Source: an uncultured Pedosphaera sp.
GTDB lineage: Bacteria > Verrucomicrobiota > Verrucomicrobiia > Limisphaerales > Pedosphaeraceae
DNA length: 47,632 bases
Reading direction: 5' to 3'
Assembly (NCBI GenBank): GCA_903930565.1
Contig: CAIYZC010000464.1
Coordinates: forward strand, 1-47,632
Below are positions 6,849 through 31,909 of this stretch, one piece after another (the first letter of the stretch is position 1; the number at the start of each line of letters is the position of its first letter). Made by a program: the position numbers and the translations under genes. Under the pieces are notes generated by a model. The model searched no databases, was not told where the DNA came from, and was given only the letters and a program-made list of their open reading frames with translations.

Positions 6849-8564
6849 CTAAAAAAGGGAATAGCGTTGGGCTAGGGGCAGGACGCAGGCGGGGGTGCAA
6901 ACCAGCAGTTCGCCATCGGCCCGGACTTCGTAGGTTTCAGGATCGACCGTGATGCGGGGCAGGGCGTCGTTCCATTTCATGTCCCGCTTGCCCAGGTGGC
7001 GGCAGCCGCGGACCGGCTCCACGCGCTTGGTCAGACCGTAAGCCGCGCCAATGCCGTGTTCGTGGGCGAGACGGCTGACAAAGTTGATGCCCAAGGGACC
7101 GGGGGCGCGGCCGAAGGCGCCAAACATCGGGCGCATATACACCGGCTGCGGGGTGGGGATGGAGGCGTTGGGATCGCCCATCTGCGACCAGGCGATGGCG
7201 CCGCCCTTGTGGACCATTTCGGGTTTGGCGCCGAAGAACGCGGGCTTCCAGAGGACGAGATCGGCCAGCTTGCCGACTTCGACGGAGCCGACCAAGTGCG
7301 AGATGCCGTGGGCGATGGCCGGATTGATGGTGTATTTGGCGAGGTAGCGTTTGATGCGGAAGTTGTCGTTCGCCCCCTGCTCCCCGGACAAGCGCCCGCG
7401 TTGTTGGCGCATTTTATCGGCGGTTTGCCAGGTGCGCGTGATGACTTCGCCGATGCGGCCCATGGCCTGGGAATCGGAGCTGATCATGCTGATCGCGCCC
7501 AAATCGTGGAGGATGTCCTCGGCGGCGATGGTCTCCCCGCGGATGCGGCTTTCCGCGAAAGCGACGTCCTCGGGCAAACCCGCGTCCAGGTGATGGCACA
7601 CCATGAGCATGTCGAGGTGCTCGTCGATCGTGTTGATGGTATAGGGCCGGGTGGGGTTGGTGGAGCTGGGCAGGACGTTGGGTTCGCCGCAGACGCGGAT
7701 GATGTCGGGGGCGTGGCCGCCGCCGGCTCCTTCCGCGTGGTAGGCGTGAATCGTCCGGCCGGCGAGGGCGGCGATGGTGGCGTCCACGAAGCCGGACTCG
7801 TTCAATGTGTCCGTATGGATGGTCACCGCGACATCCTCGGCGTCCGCGACGCGCAGGCAGCAATCGATGGCGGCGGGGGTGGTGCCCCAGTCCTCGTGCA
7901 ATTTGAGGCCGCAGGCGCCGCCTTGGATCTGTTCGCGCAGACCGGCGGGGTGGGGGGTGTTGCCCTTGCCGGTGAAGCCGAAATTCAGGGGCAAACCGTC
8001 CGTGGCCTGGAGCATCATGCGGAGGTGCCCGGCCCCCGGGGTGCAGGTGGTCGCGCAGGTGCCCGTGGCCGGGCCGGTGCCGCCACCCACCATGGTGGTC
8101 AAGCCCGCGGCGACCGCTTCGAAGGCCTGCTGCGGGCAGATGTAATGGATGTGGGTGTCCAAGCCGCCCGCGGTGAGGAGCAGCCCTTCGCCTGCGATGA
8201 CCTCGGTGGTCACGCCGAAAATCATGCCGGGGGTGACCCCGGCCATGACATCCGGGTTGCCTGCTTTGCCGATCCCGGCGATGAGGCCGTTCTTGATGCC
8301 GATGTCGGCTTTGTAAATCCCGGTGTAATCCAGGACGAGCGCGTTCGTGATGACGCAATCCAGCGCCTCGGCCTGACCGACCCCGGCGGCCTGGCCCAAG
8401 CCCTCGCGGAGCACCTTGCCGCCGCCGAATTTGCATTCGTCGCCGTAGACGGTGTAATCGTGTTCCACCTCCAGCACCAGGCAGGTGTCGCCGAGCCGCA
8501 CCCGGTCGCCCGTGGTGGGGCCGAACATTTCGGCGTAGTGGGACCGCAGCATCCGGTGGGCCAT
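6849..8564 (-). CDS. ureC: Urease subunit alpha
   Basis: '[27 protein letters not shown]', '[14 protein letters not shown]', '[19 protein letters not shown]', '[22 protein letters not shown]'. Start set to MAHRM; the track ORF over-extends to 8927. Confidence 0.98.
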
Positions 8565-8566
8565 GG

Positions 8567-9334
8567 CTATTTCTCCTCCTCGTGGGCGAAGCCGCGTTCC
8601 CGGACCCGGGCCAGAGTGGCCGCGGCGTTGGCCGGGGTGACGGGGCCATCCGCCAAATTGTTGCCGCCGCGGATCACCCGCGCGCCGGCGATGTCCACCA
8701 AGGGCACCGTTTTCGTTTCGCCCGGCTCGAAGCGGACGGCGGTGCCGGCCGGGATGTCCAGGCGGCGGCCATAGGCGCGGGCGCGGTCGAAGCGGAGGTG
8801 GGCGTTGGTCTCGACAAAATGGTAATGGCTGCCCACTTGAATCGGGCGGTCCCCCAGGTTGGTGACGGTAAGGGTGACTCCGGGGCGGCCGGCGTTGAGT
8901 TCCAGCTCGCCGGGCAAGGGGAGGCATTGCCCGGGCTCGCAGTCCGGTTCCCCGGCGGGGGCGGTGAAGTGGGTCAAATCGGGCACCGGCAAAAAGCTGC
9001 CGTAGAGCGCGAGGGACAAATCGCCGTCGAGGGAAGCGATGGGATGGTGGACCGTGACCAGTTTGGTGCCGTCGGGAAAGGTGCCTTCGACTTGGACTTC
9101 GGCGACCATGGCGGGAACGCCCGGCATGACTTGGCGGCGGCCCAGGAATTGCCGGCCGAGATTCATGAGCTCGGCGACGCCGCGGCCGTCCCGGATGAAT
9201 TCCAGCAGTTGCGTGGCGATGAGGGCGACGGCCTCGGGGTGGTTGAGGCGCACGCCGCGGGCCAGGCGTTTTTGCGCGAGGAAGCCCGCGTTGTGCAGCA
9301 GCAGCTTGTCAATGTCTCGGGGGGAAAGATGCAT
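8567..9334 (-). CDS. ureAB: Fused urease gamma/beta subunit (UreA-UreB)
   Basis: 255 aa; gamma part '[39 protein letters not shown]', beta part '[63 protein letters not shown]' in one ORF. Confidence 0.96.
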
Positions 9335-24004: not shown

Positions 24005-24736
24005 ATGGCAGGCCACAGCAAATGGGCGAAAGTTAAGACTTTCAAGGGCGCGATTGACGCCAAACGCGGCAAGATTTTCGCCAAACTGGCGAAGGAAATC
24101 GCCATTGCCGCCAAATTGGGCGGGGCGGATCCGGACATGAACCCCCGCCTGCGCATGTGCCTGTTCAAGTGCCGCGGGGCGAACATGCCCAATGAAAACA
24201 TTGAGCGCGCCATCAAAAAGGGCACCGGCGGCGGCGAAACCGGCTCTTTCGAGGACCTCACGTACGAGGTGTACGGCCCCCACGGGGTCGCGCTCCTGGT
24301 CGAATTGAGCACGGACAACCGGAACCGCACCGCCGCGGAAATCCGCAGCATCATGACCAAAAACGGGGGCAGCATCGCGACCGCGGGGGCGGTGGCCCGC
24401 CTGTTCGAGCGCAAAGGCCAGATGATCATCGCCCGCGAGGGCGTCAACGAGGACCAGGTCATGGAAGCCGCTTTGGAAGCCGGCGCCGAGGATTTCAAGG
24501 CCGAACCCGAGGGGTTCGAAATCCTCACCGATCCCGGCCACTTTGAGGCCGTGCACAAGCAAATTGAAGCGAAAGGCGTCAAGTGCGCCTCGGCCGAAAT
24601 CACGTATCTGCCCACCCTTTTGGTCCCGGTGGACGCGGCCGCCGCCCCCGCCGTGCACCGCCTCATCGAGCAGTTGGAGGATCACGACGACGTCAAGGAA
24701 TTGTATTCGAATGCCGATTTCACTCCCGCGGCCTAA
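24005..24736 (+). CDS. yebC: YebC/PmpR family transcriptional/translational regulator
   Basis: 'MAGHSKWAKVKTFKGAIDAKRGKIFAKLAKEIAIAAKLGGADPDMNPRLRMCLFKCRGANMPNENIERAIKKGTG'. Confidence 0.96.
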   Translation: MAGHSKWAKVKTFKGAIDAKRGKIFAKLAKEIAIAAKLGGADPDMNPRLRMCLFKCRGANMPNENIERAIKKGTGGGETGSFEDLTYEVYGPHGVALLVELSTDNRNRTAAEIRSIMTKNGGSIATAGAVARLFERKGQMIIAREGVNEDQVMEAALEAGAEDFKAEPEGFEILTDPGHFEAVHKQIEAKGVKCASAEITYLPTLLVPVDAAAAPAVHRLIEQLEDHDDVKELYSNADFTPAA

Positions 24737-24805: not shown

Positions 24806-27712
24806 ATGAAGACGTTGGACCAAACCATTTTCGGCCGCGCGCTGGGCTGGTTGGCGCGGCAGGTCTGCCGCCATCCCGCGTGGTTCCTGTGGCCGCAGCT
24901 GCTCCTTTTCATCGGCTCGGTGGTGTACACCGCCAAGTATCTGCAGTTCGACCCCAGCCGCGACAACTTGGTGGGCTCGGGGAAGAAGTACCATCAGAAT
25001 TTCCTCAAGTTCAAGGCGGAGTTTCCCGAGCAGGACGACTTGGTGGTGATCGTCGAGAGCGACGACTTGGAGAAGAACCGCCAATTTGTCGAGCGGTTGG
25101 GCGCCAAGCTGGAGGTCGACAAATACCGCCAGACCAACGTGGTCAAAGGCGTCCAGCAGGTGGTCGAAACCAATCTCTTCGTGGACGTCTTCTACAAGGG
25201 CGACCTCAAGATGATGGGGCCGAAGGCGCTGCTCTTCGTCCCCGAGGAGGATCTGAAGCAACTGCGTGACACGCTCGGGGACTTTGTGCCCGCCATCGAG
25301 AAGTTCACCCAGGCCACGAACCTGAATTCCTTGATGGCGACCATCAATTCGCAGTTCTTGCACGCCAAACGCGAGCAGAACAAGGAGACGGACGCCCTCA
25401 TGAAGGCGCTGCCGATGGTCGGCCGCATTCTGACCCAGGCCACGGCCAGCCTGCACCGGACGGGCGTGCCGCCTTCCCCGGGGGTGGAGGCGCTGTTCAG
25501 TGCCGGCGAGGAGGCGCAGGAACAGATTTACATCACCTTCGCCCACGGTCGGCTGTTCCTGGTCACCGCCCACGCCCCCACCGAGGACCTCAATGACCAA
25601 GCGGTCGAGCGGATGCGGGAATTGGTCGCCGAAACCCAGCGGGAAGTCCCCGGGCTGAATGTGGGGTTGACGGGGGAATCGGTGCTGGAACACGACGAAA
25701 TGGCGCAATCCCAGGCGGATTCCACCCTGGCGAGCATCGTTTCGCTGGTGGTGTGCGCCTTGATTTTCATTTACGGCTACCAGGAAATCGGGCGTCCGCT
25801 CAAAGCGACCTTGTGCCTTTTGGTGGGCTTGGGCTACACGATGGCGTTCACGACCTTCACGGTGGGCCACCTGAACATCCTGACCATTACCTTCGTCCCG
25901 ATTCTGATCGGCTTGGCGATTGATTTTGGCGTCCACGTGATCACGCGTTACGAGGAGGAATTGCGCCTGGGCAAAACCGAGGAAGTGGCCATTGGTCTGG
26001 CCATTGTCTTCACCGGGCAGGGGGTTTTTACCGGGGCGTTGACCACGGCGGCGGCCTTTTTGGCGATGTGTTTGACGGATTTTCGCGGGATTCAGGAGAT
26101 GGGGATCATTTGCGGCGGCGGCATGTTGATCTGCCTCGTGCCCATGCTCACGCTGCTGCCGGTGCTGCTCCTCCGCAGTCGGCGGAATCAGGCCGGGGAG
26201 CGGCCCACCGCCCATGCCGCCGCCGCTCCGGTCTCGTTTCGGGCGCGGTTGGAAAGCCTGTGGCTCGACCGCCCCCGCTTGATCTGCTGCCTGACCGTCA
26301 TCCTGAGTGGTCTGGCCGTGACCCAATTCCACAAGGTCTTTTTCGATTACAATTTGCTGAATATGCAGTCGGCCGGGTTGCCGGCGGTCAAGTATGAGAA
26401 GAAGTTGATCGACTCCACCTCGCAGTCCGTCCTCTTCGCCGCCGTGGTCGCCGACTCGGCGCAGGAGGCTGTGGAGTTGGAAAAGAAGCTGCGGGCCCTG
26501 CCCGCCGTCTCGACCAACTTCATGATGGCGAGCTATCTGACCGAGGATCAGACGGAGAAGCTCCGGCTCATCGGGCAGATCAAACAGCAAGTTGCCGGCC
26601 TGCATTTCGCCCCGGTTGCCCCGCCGCCGTCACCGCGGGTGGAAACGGCCCGGCCGCCCTTGGGACCGAAACCGGAGGTGCCCGCCGCGGACCCGGCCGC
26701 GGGTCAGGCCGAGGAATACCTGGCTGCCTTGGGAGGCACGTTGTTCAGCACGAAGGGCTATTTCGGCGCCGCGGCCGCGGAAACCGCGCGGGAGCCGGAC
26801 CAAGCGGTGTTAACCAAGCAATTGCGGGAATTGCGCGACTCCGTGCGGGAGCTGCACCGCCAGCTCAACGCCGGGCCACCGGAATTGATGGCCCAAAAGC
26901 TCGCGGCGTTTGAGCGTGCTTTGTTCGATGATGTCCGCGAAACGTTTGACTCCTTCCGCAATCAGGACAACCGCGCGCCCCTCCGCGCCGAAGACCTGCC
27001 GGCGGCGTTCCGCCATCGGTTCATTGGCATCACCGGCAAATACTTGATCCAAGTTTATCCCCGCGAAAACATTTGGAACCGGGAGCAACAAACTGAATTC
27101 ATCCGCCAGGTCCGCACCGTGGCCCCGTTGGTCACCGGCACGCCCGTGCAGCTCTACGAATACACCACGCTTCTCAAGGAGAGCTATCAACTGGCCGCCT
27201 GGTACGCGCTTTTGGCCATCATCCTCATGGTGTGGGTGCATTTCCGCAACTTTAAGTCCGTCGTGCTGGCGCTCCTTCCGGTGGGCATCGGGGTGGTCTG
27301 GCTCGGCGGTTTTATGGGGCTGACCGCCATCCCGTTCAACCCCGCCAACATCATGACCCTGCCGTTGGTCATCGGCATCGGCGTGACCAATGGCATCCAC
27401 ATCCTGAACCGCTACGCCGAAGAGGGAAACCCCAACCTGCTCTCCAAGAGCACGGGCAAAGCCGTGTTTGTCTCGGGTTTGACCACGATTTCCGGGTTTG
27501 GCAGCCTGATGTTGGCCAAGCACCAAGGCATTCAGAGCTTGGGTTACGTGATGTCCCTAGGGGTAACGGCGTGCATGCTGGCGGCTTTGACCTTTCTGCC
27601 CGCCATCCTCAACTTGTTTCCGAGCCAGTCTCCGGCCCAACGACCCGGTGCCGACAATGCACGGTCGGCACCGGGACCGGAGGAACCGAGGTCACAACCT
27701 CGTGATGCCTAA
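24806..27712 (+). CDS. MMPL/RND family exporter, HpnN-like
   Basis: 968 aa with two RND-type membrane blocks: 'FVPILIGLAIDFGVHVITRYEEEL' and 'MTLPLVIGIGVTNGIHILNRYAEEG'. Confidence 0.85.
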   Translation: MKTLDQTIFGRALGWLARQVCRHPAWFLWPQLLLFIGSVVYTAKYLQFDPSRDNLVGSGKKYHQNFLKFKAEFPEQDDLVVIVESDDLEKNRQFVERLGAKLEVDKYRQTNVVKGVQQVVETNLFVDVFYKGDLKMMGPKALLFVPEEDLKQLRDTLGDFVPAIEKFTQATNLNSLMATINSQFLHAKREQNKETDALMKALPMVGRILTQATASLHRTGVPPSPGVEALFSAGEEAQEQIYITFAHGRLFLVTAHAPTEDLNDQAVERMRELVAETQREVPGLNVGLTGESVLEHDEMAQSQADSTLASIVSLVVCALIFIYGYQEIGRPLKATLCLLVGLGYTMAFTTFTVGHLNILTITFVPILIGLAIDFGVHVITRYEEELRLGKTEEVAIGLAIVFTGQGVFTGALTTAAAFLAMCLTDFRGIQEMGIICGGGMLICLVPMLTLLPVLLLRSRRNQAGERPTAHAAAAPVSFRARLESLWLDRPRLICCLTVILSGLAVTQFHKVFFDYNLLNMQSAGLPAVKYEKKLIDSTSQSVLFAAVVADSAQEAVELEKKLRALPAVSTNFMMASYLTEDQTEKLRLIGQIKQQVAGLHFAPVAPPPSPRVETARPPLGPKPEVPAADPAAGQAEEYLAALGGTLFSTKGYFGAAAAETAREPDQAVLTKQLRELRDSVRELHRQLNAGPPELMAQKLAAFERALFDDVRETFDSFRNQDNRAPLRAEDLPAAFRHRFIGITGKYLIQVYPRENIWNREQQTEFIRQVRTVAPLVTGTPVQLYEYTTLLKESYQLAAWYALLAIILMVWVHFRNFKSVVLALLPVGIGVVWLGGFMGLTAIPFNPANIMTLPLVIGIGVTNGIHILNRYAEEGNPNLLSKSTGKAVFVSGLTTISGFGSLMLAKHQGIQSLGYVMSLGVTACMLAALTFLPAILNLFPSQSPAQRPGADNARSAPGPEEPRSQPRDA

Positions 27713-27919: not shown

Positions 27920-29392
27920 ATGGCCATTGCTAAATACCTAAGCCTCTTGGGAGTTGTGAGCTGCCTCCCCTGCGCCGCCTCCGCGGCCGGGGGGCCGCGG
28001 CTGGGGCCCTTGTACGACGATTTTTCGCTGACGCTGGAGTCGGGGCGCCGGACGGAAATCCTCGGCCCGCTGTATTACTCCGAAGAGCGCGAGACCCGCC
28101 ACACTTGGGCCATCCCCCCCTTGACCCTGGCGCACACGTGGGATCCGGCAACGGATTCCGAGGAATGGGATTTCGCCTATCCGCTGTTGACCTACGACCG
28201 TTTTGGCAAGGAAGTCCATTGGCAGATCATGCAGTTGTGGAACGTGGCCGGCGGGAAGAACCAGGACGCCTCGGAGGATCATCGTTTCACGCTGTTCCCA
28301 TTTTACTTTCAACAGCGCTCCACGATTCCGAGCCACAATTATACGGCCATGGTTCCGTTCTATGGCCACTTGGACCACCGTTTGTTCCGCGACGAGACTG
28401 ATTTCGTGCTCTTCCCCTGCTACGTCAAGACGCGCAAAGGGGATGTGGTGACGCGGAACATGCCGTATCCGTTCTTCCACCTCCGCCGCGGCGACGGCCT
28501 GGTCGGTTGGCAGTTGTGGCCCCTCATGGGGCATGAGCACAAGGAGCCCACCTCCCGCACGAACAGCTTCGGGGAGGTTCAAATCGTGGGTGGTCACGAC
28601 AAGCGCTTTCTGCTGTGGCCGTTTTATACCCAGGCGGACACGGACTTGGGCACGGACCATACCAACCACCTGCAGACGTTGCTCTTCGTGTATTCCCTGG
28701 AGCGTTCGGAGGCGCGCACCGCCACCTCCTTCGGTTGGCCGCTGGGTGTCACGCACACCATCGACCGGACCAATGGCTACACCGAGTGGGACGCGCCGTT
28801 TCCGATGGTGGAATTCGCCCATGGCCCGGGCAAAACCACCCGCCGGGTTTGGCCGTTCTTCAGCGAGGCGCACAACGCCAGTGTGGAGAGCGATTTTTAC
28901 GGCTGGCCGGTGTACAAATTCAACGGCTACCACACGGAAACCTACGCCCGTGAGCGTGAGCGGATTCTGTTCTTCCTCTATTCCGACACCCGGGAGCATG
29001 ATCTGGGCCGCCACAAGGACCGGGTGCGGGTGGACTGCTTTCCCCTGTACACGCGCACCAAGGAATTCGACGGCCGGGTGCGTTTCCAAGCCCTGTCCAT
29101 TTTGGAACCCATCTTCCCCAACAACAAGACCTTGGAGCGGGATCTTTCCCCCCTCTACGCCTTTTGGCGGGCGGAGCGGAATCCCAAAACCCGGGCCCGG
29201 AGCGAGTCCTTGTTGTGGAACCTCTACCGCCGCGACGAAACCCCCGAGACCAAGCGCTGTTCGCTGTTGTTCGGGCTGGTGCAATACCAAACCGGCGCGC
29301 CCGGTCCCCGCTGGCGGATCGCCTACCTGCCCCTCGGACCGAAGGCGGCCGCGCCGCCCGTCGCCGCCCCCGCCCCCCCGGCCCAACCTTGA
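27920..29392 (+). CDS. Secreted aromatic-repeat ('WPFY/FPLY') protein of unknown function, first gene of MCE operon
   Basis: 490 aa; signal peptide MAIAKYLSLLGVVSCLPCAASAAGG; about 15 copies of a W/F/Y-P-h-Y/F motif (LFPFYFQ, MVPFYGH, LFPCYVK, LWPFYTQ, VWPFFSE, GWPVYKF, CFPLYTR, LSPLYAF). Confidence 0.85.
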   Translation: MAIAKYLSLLGVVSCLPCAASAAGGPRLGPLYDDFSLTLESGRRTEILGPLYYSEERETRHTWAIPPLTLAHTWDPATDSEEWDFAYPLLTYDRFGKEVHWQIMQLWNVAGGKNQDASEDHRFTLFPFYFQQRSTIPSHNYTAMVPFYGHLDHRLFRDETDFVLFPCYVKTRKGDVVTRNMPYPFFHLRRGDGLVGWQLWPLMGHEHKEPTSRTNSFGEVQIVGGHDKRFLLWPFYTQADTDLGTDHTNHLQTLLFVYSLERSEARTATSFGWPLGVTHTIDRTNGYTEWDAPFPMVEFAHGPGKTTRRVWPFFSEAHNASVESDFYGWPVYKFNGYHTETYARERERILFFLYSDTREHDLGRHKDRVRVDCFPLYTRTKEFDGRVRFQALSILEPIFPNNKTLERDLSPLYAFWRAERNPKTRARSESLLWNLYRRDETPETKRCSLLFGLVQYQTGAPGPRWRIAYLPLGPKAAAPPVAAPAPPAQP

Positions 29393-29410
29393 ACCACGAC
29401 GCAATCGATT

Positions 29411-30145
29411 ATGTTTGAAAGCATTGGTGAAATGGCGTTGCTCTTTTTCCGGACCCTGGGCTCCCTGCCGCAGGTCTGGCGGCAGCGGCACAAGGTTTGT
29501 GAGCAGTTTTTTGAAATTGGCAACGCCAGCCTGCTCATGGTTTGCATCCTGTCCTTTTTCATCGGCGGCGTGATCTGTCTCCTGACCGGGCCGGTCTTGG
29601 TGGAGCGCGGGCTCGCCTCCTCCATTGGCGGCTTGGTGGGCATCTCCATGTGCAAGGAGCTGGCCCCGGTGATGATGTCCATCCTGATCGCCGGCCGCAT
29701 TGGCTCCGCCATGGCGGCGGAAATCGGTTCCATGCAGGTGTACCAGGAAATCGACGCCCTCCGCACCATGAACATCAACCCCATCCACTATTTGGTGCTG
29801 CCCCGGTTGGTGGCGATCGCGGTCGCCCTGCCGCTGCTGGTGGTCTTTGCGATCCTGATCGGTTGGGGCGGCGGCTCCTTGGTGGCGGCTTTGAATCACC
29901 AAATCTCCATTTCCTTCCAATCCTTCTTCGCCAACCTCCGGGATTTCGTCACGGTGGGCAATGTGGCCAACGGCTTGCTGAAAAGTTTCGTCTTCGCCCT
30001 CGTCATCGCGGTGGTTTCCTGCCACCAGGGCTTGAAAACCATTGGCGGACCCCGCGGCATCGGCCGCTCGGTCACCAAGGCGGTCGTCAATTGCATCGTG
30101 ATGATCGTCATCCTCGATTATTTCCTGACCCGTCTGACGCTGTGA
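29411..30145 (+). CDS. mlaE: MlaE family ABC transporter permease (MCE/lipid transport)
   Basis: 'LVGISMCKELAPVMMSILIAGRIGSAMAAEIGSMQVYQEIDALRTMNINPIHYLVLPRLVAIAVALPLLVVF' MlaE signature. Confidence 0.95.
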   Translation: MFESIGEMALLFFRTLGSLPQVWRQRHKVCEQFFEIGNASLLMVCILSFFIGGVICLLTGPVLVERGLASSIGGLVGISMCKELAPVMMSILIAGRIGSAMAAEIGSMQVYQEIDALRTMNINPIHYLVLPRLVAIAVALPLLVVFAILIGWGGGSLVAALNHQISISFQSFFANLRDFVTVGNVANGLLKSFVFALVIAVVSCHQGLKTIGGPRGIGRSVTKAVVNCIVMIVILDYFLTRLTL

Positions 30146-30152
30146 GCCGATC

Positions 30153-30935
30153 ATGAACGAATCTCCCTCCAATCCCGCGACGCAACGCGGCGTGGCTGTC
30201 CGGGTGCGCGGGCTCTGCAAGCGGCTGCAGGGGACCCCCGTGCTCCAGGACATCGATCTTGACGTCGCGCCCGGTGAGATCTTTGTCATCATGGGCCCGA
30301 GCGGCAGCGGCAAGAGCGTCCTGTTGCGCCACCTCAGCGGCTTGATGGAACCGGACGCCGGCGAGGTGCTCGTGGGCGGCCAACCCGTGCGCGCCCCCGA
30401 ACTCATGCCGGATTACCGGCTGGCCATGGTTTTCCAATCCGGCGCGCTCCTAAATTCCCTCACCGTGGGCGAAAACGTCGGGTTGTTCCTCCGGGAGCAC
30501 CGCCTCAAACCACCCGCCGAAATCGCCCGGATCGTCGCCGAAAAGCTGGCCGTGGTCGGCCTCAAGGGCCAGGAGCACAAACTCCCCGCGGAACTCTCCG
30601 GCGGCATGAAAAAGCGCGCCGCCATCGCCCGCGCCCTGGTCATCGATCCCCAACTCATTCTGTACGATGAACCGACCAGCGAACTCGACCCCGTCTCCGC
30701 CTCGGTCATCGCCGAGGAAATCGTGCGCCTGCAACGGCGCATCGGCGTGACTTCCATCGTGGTGTCCCATGACCGCGACTTGGTCTTCGGTATCGCCGAC
30801 CGGCTCGCCGTGATCTCCGGCGGGCGCATCCTGGCGGTGGGCACCCCGGCCCGAATCCGCGCCCATCCCAACGCCGAGCTGCAAGCCTTTCTCAACGTCG
30901 ATTTTCAGTTCCCCTCCCTCAAGCAAACCGTATGA
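30153..30935 (+). CDS. mlaF: MlaF-like ABC transporter ATP-binding protein
   Basis: 'VIMGPSGSGKSVLLRHLSGLMEPDAGEV', 'LPAELSGGMKKRAAIARALVIDPQLILYDEPTSELDPVSA'. Confidence 0.94.
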   Translation: MNESPSNPATQRGVAVRVRGLCKRLQGTPVLQDIDLDVAPGEIFVIMGPSGSGKSVLLRHLSGLMEPDAGEVLVGGQPVRAPELMPDYRLAMVFQSGALLNSLTVGENVGLFLREHRLKPPAEIARIVAEKLAVVGLKGQEHKLPAELSGGMKKRAAIARALVIDPQLILYDEPTSELDPVSASVIAEEIVRLQRRIGVTSIVVSHDRDLVFGIADRLAVISGGRILAVGTPARIRAHPNAELQAFLNVDFQFPSLKQTV

Positions 30936-31909
30936 AAAACTCCTTGGAAACCCTGCTCGGCATGTTCATCGCCCTCGCGATGATCGCCGCCTTTTTCATT
31001 CTTGAAATCATCGGCGGGCTCAACGTCTTCAAATCCGCCATCCACGTCAAAGCCGCCTTCGCCAATATCCAGGAGCTCAAGGTGGGCGATCCCGTGAAAA
31101 TCTCCGGCGTTCAGGTCGGCCAGGTGGAGCATGTGGGCCTCGACCCCGAGAACGGCAAAGTCGAGCTGACCCTGCGTCTGGACAAGGATGCCCCAGTCCA
31201 CACCGACAGCATCGCCACCGTGAAATACGCCGGCTTGCTGGGGGCCAATTATGTGGCCCTCTCCTTCGGCAAGCCCACCTCCCCGAAGGCGGACAACGCC
31301 ACCCACCTGCTCACCCAGGAGCAACCGGACCTCAGCGCGCTCATGGCCAAGCTCGACGAGGCCGCGACCGGCGTCCAAACCATCACACGGAGCTTCAGCG
31401 GCGAAAAAATCGACAACCTCCTGGGCCCGTTCACCGATTTCATGAGGGTGAACAACCCCAAGATCACCGCCATCATTGCCAATGTGAACGGCATCACCAC
31501 CGAGATCGCCCAGGGCAAGGGCACGGTCGGCCGCCTGATTCGTGACGACACGCTCTATACTTCCGCCCTCGGCGCTGTCACCAACCTCCAGGACACCTCG
31601 CTGGAAATCAAACACACCGTCGCCCAAGCCCGCGGCATTGTGGACCAGGTCAACTCGGGGCAGGGCACCGTCGGCAAGCTCATCAAGGATGACGCCCTCT
31701 ACAAGGAAACCACCTCCGGCATGACGAACCTCCGGGAAATCCTGCAAAAGGTGAACCAAGGCCAGGGCAGCGTGGGCAAGCTGCTCAACGACCAGGAATT
31801 CTACAACAACGCCAAGCTCTCCCTCCAAAAGCTGGACAAGGCGACCGAGAGCCTCGAAGACACCGGCCCGCTGAGCATCCTGGGGTCGGTGATGAACAGT
31901 TTGCTGTAA
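30932..31909 (+). CDS. mlaD: MlaD/MCE domain protein
   Basis: 'ETLLGMFIALAMIAAFFILEIIGG', 'VKAAFANIQELKVGDPVKISGVQVGQVEHVGLDP'; ATGA overlap with mlaF; C-terminal G-x-G-T-V-G-K-L repeats. Confidence 0.93.
   Translation: MKNSLETLLGMFIALAMIAAFFILEIIGGLNVFKSAIHVKAAFANIQELKVGDPVKISGVQVGQVEHVGLDPENGKVELTLRLDKDAPVHTDSIATVKYAGLLGANYVALSFGKPTSPKADNATHLLTQEQPDLSALMAKLDEAATGVQTITRSFSGEKIDNLLGPFTDFMRVNNPKITAIIANVNGITTEIAQGKGTVGRLIRDDTLYTSALGAVTNLQDTSLEIKHTVAQARGIVDQVNSGQGTVGKLIKDDALYKETTSGMTNLREILQKVNQGQGSVGKLLNDQEFYNNAKLSLQKLDKATESLEDTGPLSILGSVMNSLL

Follow-up and report, generated by a model that had tools for sequence, protein, structure and literature searches.

Gene organization of the WPFY-mlaEFD locus

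The DNA analyzed here, hereafter the window, is a single contig of 47,632 nucleotides (nt) (CAIYZC010000464.1) from the 6.6-Mb genome of an uncultured bacterium related to Pedosphaera (phylum Verrucomicrobiota, class Verrucomicrobiia, order Limisphaerales). It carries an operon in which the gene of a predicted exported protein of 490 residues, here called the WPFY protein, precedes mlaE, mlaF, and mlaD, the genes of an MCE-type ABC transporter. That the WPFY protein is a partner of this transporter is well supported by the adjacency of the genes, by the co-occurrence of WPFY with one kind of MlaE when the genes lie apart, and by a matching signature at the C-terminus of MlaD. The operon comprises the following features:

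27920..29392, plus strand: WPFY-repeat protein, predicted exported, 490 amino acids (aa), operon head (open reading frame; all-beta AlphaFold (AF2) model; no family match)
27920..27988, plus strand: putative signal peptide spanning WPFY residues 1-23 (assigned by eye; pLDDT low at residues 1-20)
28004..29155, plus strand: array of aromatic-Pro-aromatic strand-turn-strand repeats, WPFY residues 29-412 (motif counts; invariant turn prolines)
29102..29158, plus strand: predicted helical element of the mature WPFY protein, residues 395-413 (DSSP on the models; retained in a distant homologue)
29411..30145, plus strand: mlaE, MCE-type ABC permease (PF02405, E-value 3e-69; TIGR00056 over cut-off; tree position)
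30153..30935, plus strand: mlaF, ATPase (PF00005, ABC_tran, E-value 1e-31)
30932..31909, plus strand: mlaD, one MCE domain (residues 37-113) and a long tail (PF02470, E-value 8e-21)
31865..31906, plus strand: conserved C-terminal hydrophobic motif of MlaD, GPLSILGSVMNSLL, a candidate docking or membrane tip (75/78 linked, 0/31 unlinked MlaD)

The WPFY gene ends 18 nt before mlaE, mlaE and mlaF are separated by 7 nt, and mlaF and mlaD overlap by 4 nt. MlaE, MlaF, and a single-MCE MlaD, encoded within one operon, identify an MlaEFD-type MCE ABC transporter. An initial annotation, made from the sequence alone, had given these reading-frame coordinates, the 18-nt spacing, and a tight mlaE-mlaF-mlaD succession; the open reading frame list and Pfam agree with it exactly. 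It had also counted about 15 aromatic-Pro-aromatic repeats in the WPFY protein, a fair estimate given that a strict pattern (hydrophobic-P-hydrophobic-aromatic/L) matches 12 times, as compared with 1.4 on average and never more than 6 among 2000 shuffled versions of the protein, and a looser one 17 times. Among 28 diverse homologues from across the phylum, 13 of the 16 invariant columns are prolines, mostly located in the aromatic-Pro turns. Judged by eye, the N-terminus (MAIAKYLSLLGVVSCLPCAASAA followed by GG) resembles an ordinary signal peptide, and the protein is predicted to be exported. In a few homologues (L038, L039, L123, and L126), a plausible lipobox replaces the signal peptide; these proteins appear to be lipoproteins, which would fit a membrane-facing role.

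Neither the WPFY protein nor its homologue family returns a sequence match above cut-off in Pfam, NCBIfam, PHROGs, or the PDB, and no description of the family was found in paper searches of the open-access literature. The match to a characterized unrelated family that the initial annotation had named beforehand as refuting its proposal of an MCE partner was not found in these four libraries. Matches to Peptidase_C21, TbpB, and DUF6421 are sub-threshold noise. MlaEFD being already known, WPFY would be an undescribed subunit within a known kind of system.

Association of WPFY with one MlaEFD lineage

Genome samples of the order, the class, and the phylum were drawn evenly and overlap. The single WPFY protein used as a query reached close relatives only, and a profile was used for the class and the phylum. 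A WPFY homologue, nearly always single-copy, is found in 169 of 196 genomes of the order. The profile matches 64 of the 236 class genomes and 119 of the 289 phylum genomes; a tblastn search of plasmids returned no match. Examination of 83 neighbourhoods, those outside the order coming mostly from higher-scoring matches, reveals mlaE immediately downstream of WPFY and on the same strand in 74, with a complete mlaEFD in 73. The adjacency holds in 36 of 43 loci of the order (median gap 14 nt), in all 20 from other orders of the class, and in 18 of 20 from other classes. Homologues rarely sitting beside mce genes, the second outcome named beforehand as refuting, is therefore not what the neighbourhoods across the phylum display.

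The nine remaining neighbourhoods comprise one contig end and eight genomes in which WPFY is detached from mlaE. These eight genomes encode an MlaE elsewhere, 65-76% identical to that of the window in all six genomes of the order and 35% identical in the two from other classes, and a quick tree places all eight inside the WPFY-linked clades, some of the placements being weakly supported. The WPFY-lacking genomes of the order that were checked possess MlaE at no more than 39% identity. Regarding the genes that follow detached WPFY, an M14 carboxypeptidase-like gene is present in L067 (9562-11364), and a similar exported protein of ~320-340 aa adjoins WPFY in L049 and L070.

A tree of 73 linked and 30 unlinked MlaE sequences requires 2 changes of label, versus 26 in shuffles. 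The linked sequences fall into two clades, one for the class and a second for other classes, neither of which contains an unlinked paralogue, and the WPFY-lacking genomes examined contain other MlaE types only. The two clades could still share a single origin. Together with the co-occurrence in the detached genomes, the tree indicates that WPFY travels with one kind of MlaEFD and not with MCE genes in general.

A C-terminal signature in the linked MlaD

The MlaD proteins linked to WPFY end in a hydrophobic motif that reaches the last residue; it reads GP(L/I)SxxG...LF within the class, while other classes have a sequence resembling (A/S)PITTFSSIFFGAF. The pattern is found in 70 of 73 MlaD encoded adjacent to WPFY and in 5 of 5 from detached genomes (75/78 linked in total), in contrast with 0 of 31 unlinked MlaD, a set that includes 11 paralogues from WPFY-containing genomes (motif in 0/11). 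The contrast (Fisher p 4e-24), obtained with a pattern defined after the fact and on related sequences, represents a strong difference between lineages, as the 78 sequences do not count as independent events. Through its tip, the linked MlaD would seem to contact something that other MlaD do not, either the WPFY protein or a membrane.

Predicted structure of the WPFY protein

The AF2 model of the WPFY protein (mean pLDDT 91.6, pTM 0.79) is all-beta and comprises ~45 strands with a mean length of 5.8 residues, plus a small helix region at residues 395-413. A separate model of a member from another class (pLDDT 88.1), built from a 28-row alignment sharing some members with that of the first model, exhibits the same pattern, with helices in the corresponding place. 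The beta-rich character proposed at the outset is thus retained in two confident models of distant members. The predicted fold is an extended antiparallel meander in which aromatic-Pro turns connect the short strands; its overall shape may be an open ribbon, a spiral shell, or a propeller.

Foldseek analysis against PDB and viral libraries reports local matches only, with probabilities up to 0.99 and global TM-scores no higher than about 0.33. They involve single-layer sheets (OspA, CPAP TCP10), MORN repeats, beta-propellers, OmpU, and Tom40; no solved fold among the matches listed reaches a TM-score of at least 0.5, the PDB chains listed scoring 0.32 or less. The free-standing single-layer sheets of the OspA mutants, the CPAP TCP10 domain (4bxr), and the MORN-repeat proteins share the local antiparallel meander geometry of WPFY but differ from it by this low global score and by the absence of sequence similarity.

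Other transport components and comparison with known systems

MlaC (PF05494) has no match in the window genome, nor in the 16 WPFY genomes searched for it, while E. coli and the WPFY-lacking genome G224 are positive. An MlaA-family protein is present in 3 of these 16 genomes and absent from 13, and the window genome encodes none in the operon; PqiA/LetA (PF04403) is present in 4 of the 16 and absent from the window genome. The operon has no further open reading frame that could encode MlaB (STAS), which was not searched genome-wide. The early remark that no MlaA, MlaC, or LetA lies nearby therefore holds, and for MlaC and PqiA/LetA extends to the whole window genome. In genomes without MlaC, MlaA-family domains sit in unusually long frames of about 660-906 aa (contigs C560 and C590 of the window genome; C90 and C93 of G001). 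In the WPFY-lacking G224, the genes of MlaC and MlaA come after mlaE-mlaF-mlaD and complete the canonical set. At the locus L168:4689-8074, from a WPFY-lacking member of the class, mlaE-mlaF-mlaD are followed by two small exported-protein genes, MlaC and MlaA (canonical Mla); the two genes after mlaD in L170:2474-6080, also WPFY-lacking, resemble the L168 pair by order and size only.

Similar to the E. coli Mla system (MlaA-MlaC-MlaFEDB), the WPFY operon groups an MlaE permease, an MlaF ATPase, and an MlaD MCE protein. Unlike it, the genome is devoid of MlaC, the operon is devoid of MlaA and starts with an unrelated beta-repeat protein, and the tail of MlaD is long and bears a C-terminal motif of its own. 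The minimal MlaEFD of the Veillonella type (PMC10665443, 2023) shares the core without MlaA or MlaC in the operon and the long MlaD tail. The Veillonella MlaD ends in a beta-barrel that was reported as absent in MlaD of the PVC group, for which that study raised unidentified proteins as a possibility; the WPFY operon instead encodes a separate all-beta protein, its MlaD tail being read in sequence only. Finally, the Pqi and Let systems also perform MCE-based intermembrane transport, but with several MCE domains and PqiA/LetA, as compared with one MCE domain here and no PF04403 in the window genome.

Neighbouring genes

Two genes upstream of the operon are common within the order:

24806..27712, plus strand: HpnN-like RND (MMPL) transporter, order-specific neighbour (TIGR03480, 566.6 bits; cut-off 751.85)
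24005..24736, plus strand: YebC, common upstream neighbour within the order (PF01709, E-value 8e-55)

The RND gene resembles the lipid transporters HpnN and BstA but scores under the curated cut-offs of both, and outside the order it is not conserved beside WPFY. Elsewhere in the window, an Rfam 5_ureB_sRNA match (98 bits, 8117-8411, plus strand) lies on the opposite strand to an apparent urease reading frame (6849-8927, minus strand) and is probably explained by conservation of the urease coding sequence, not by a small RNA.

Proposed role and alternative explanations

Beyond the partnership itself, we lean slightly towards a specific role, in which the WPFY protein would be a dedicated envelope subunit of one MlaEFD lineage in Verrucomicrobiota that accepts the tip of MlaD close to the outer membrane and takes the place of MlaC and MlaA. 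The MlaD hexamer of the inner-membrane MlaEFD would send its tail through the periplasm, and the hydrophobic tip of this tail would either dock on WPFY on the periplasmic side of the outer membrane or insert into the membrane next to WPFY. Lipid would be taken up or released at the outer membrane by the rows of Trp/Phe/Tyr-Pro turns of WPFY. WPFY would then do the job of MlaC plus the MlaA-porin complex in E. coli, and that proposed for the beta-barrel of the Veillonella MlaD.

Several points count against this role. The WPFY strands lack a clear alternation of hydrophobic and polar faces (0.69 versus 0.61 in shuffles), so that the sequence reveals no lipid groove. Two MlaA-family matches lie on other contigs of the window genome (C560:7449-8057 and C590:9700-10236). 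As the linked MlaE form two clades only, the motif and co-occurrence counts amount to few independent events, and the adjacency is lost in eight genomes, four of which retain the RND gene beside WPFY. The location of WPFY, its binding to MlaD, and its handling of lipid are all inferred. The envelope or outer-membrane partner envisaged by the initial annotation is thus upheld as regards partnership, predicted export, and beta-rich character, while the outer-membrane location and direct contact with the complex are putative.

The alternative that survives best, although we consider it unlikely, is that WPFY helps to scaffold, assemble, or regulate the MCE complex, as a beta platform in the manner of BamB, without contacting lipid. 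It draws on the same linkage evidence, and both the local likeness to beta-propellers and single-layer sheets and the lack of a visible lipid-binding face would suit it. However, with MlaC absent and MlaA usually absent, a lipid-handling step seems to need a replacement.

In a bolder and somewhat less likely version of lipid handling by WPFY, its ~45 strands would form a free-standing beta-meander lining or bridging the periplasm at the tip of the MCE hexamer and carrying lipid along the aromatic-Pro turns. If stretched out flat, with ~4.8 Angstrom for each strand, the modelled meander would measure some 200 Angstrom. If true, such a bridge would be a third solution for moving lipid between bacterial membranes, conserved across Verrucomicrobiota.

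An outer-membrane transmembrane beta-barrel passing lipids, as LptD or the barrel fused to MlaD, is improbable. WPFY is predicted to be exported, all-beta, and linked to a transporter, and in some distant members the last strands are rich in aromatic residues. However, classical transmembrane barrels are closed and made of amphipathic strands of at least ~9 residues, whereas the ~45 strands of WPFY average 5.8 residues and show no amphipathic alternation, which makes such a barrel unlikely; moreover, Foldseek reports no good barrel match, only the local ones with OmpU and Tom40.

More improbable still, WPFY could mainly serve the HpnN-like RND transporter and hopanoid traffic, its MCE link being secondary. 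The RND gene lies upstream of WPFY in 29 of 43 loci of the order and is retained in four loci whose mlaEFD is elsewhere, and squalene-hopene cyclase is present in 10 out of 10 genomes of the order tested. Outside the order, however, no RND gene is found near WPFY (0/40 loci), yet mlaE is present in 38 of these 40, and squalene-hopene cyclase is absent from the six WPFY genomes tested (0/6). A hopanoid-specific function is therefore rejected as a general explanation. The RND link is an order-level addition, perhaps serving hopanoids, and the association of WPFY with MlaEFD persists without it. Least probable of all, WPFY could have an unrelated function in the envelope and merely be co-transcribed with mlaEFD: adjacency may be conserved for regulatory reasons, but the co-occurrence survives gene separation, and a matching signature is present on MlaD.

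Many bacteria have neither MlaA nor MlaC nor an MlaD with a barrel tip, and for them the question arises of how MCE transporters connect to the outer membrane. The WPFY family, which combines an unmatched predicted fold with a matching MlaD signature, provides a concrete, phylum-wide candidate that makes this question testable by interaction and mutant assays.

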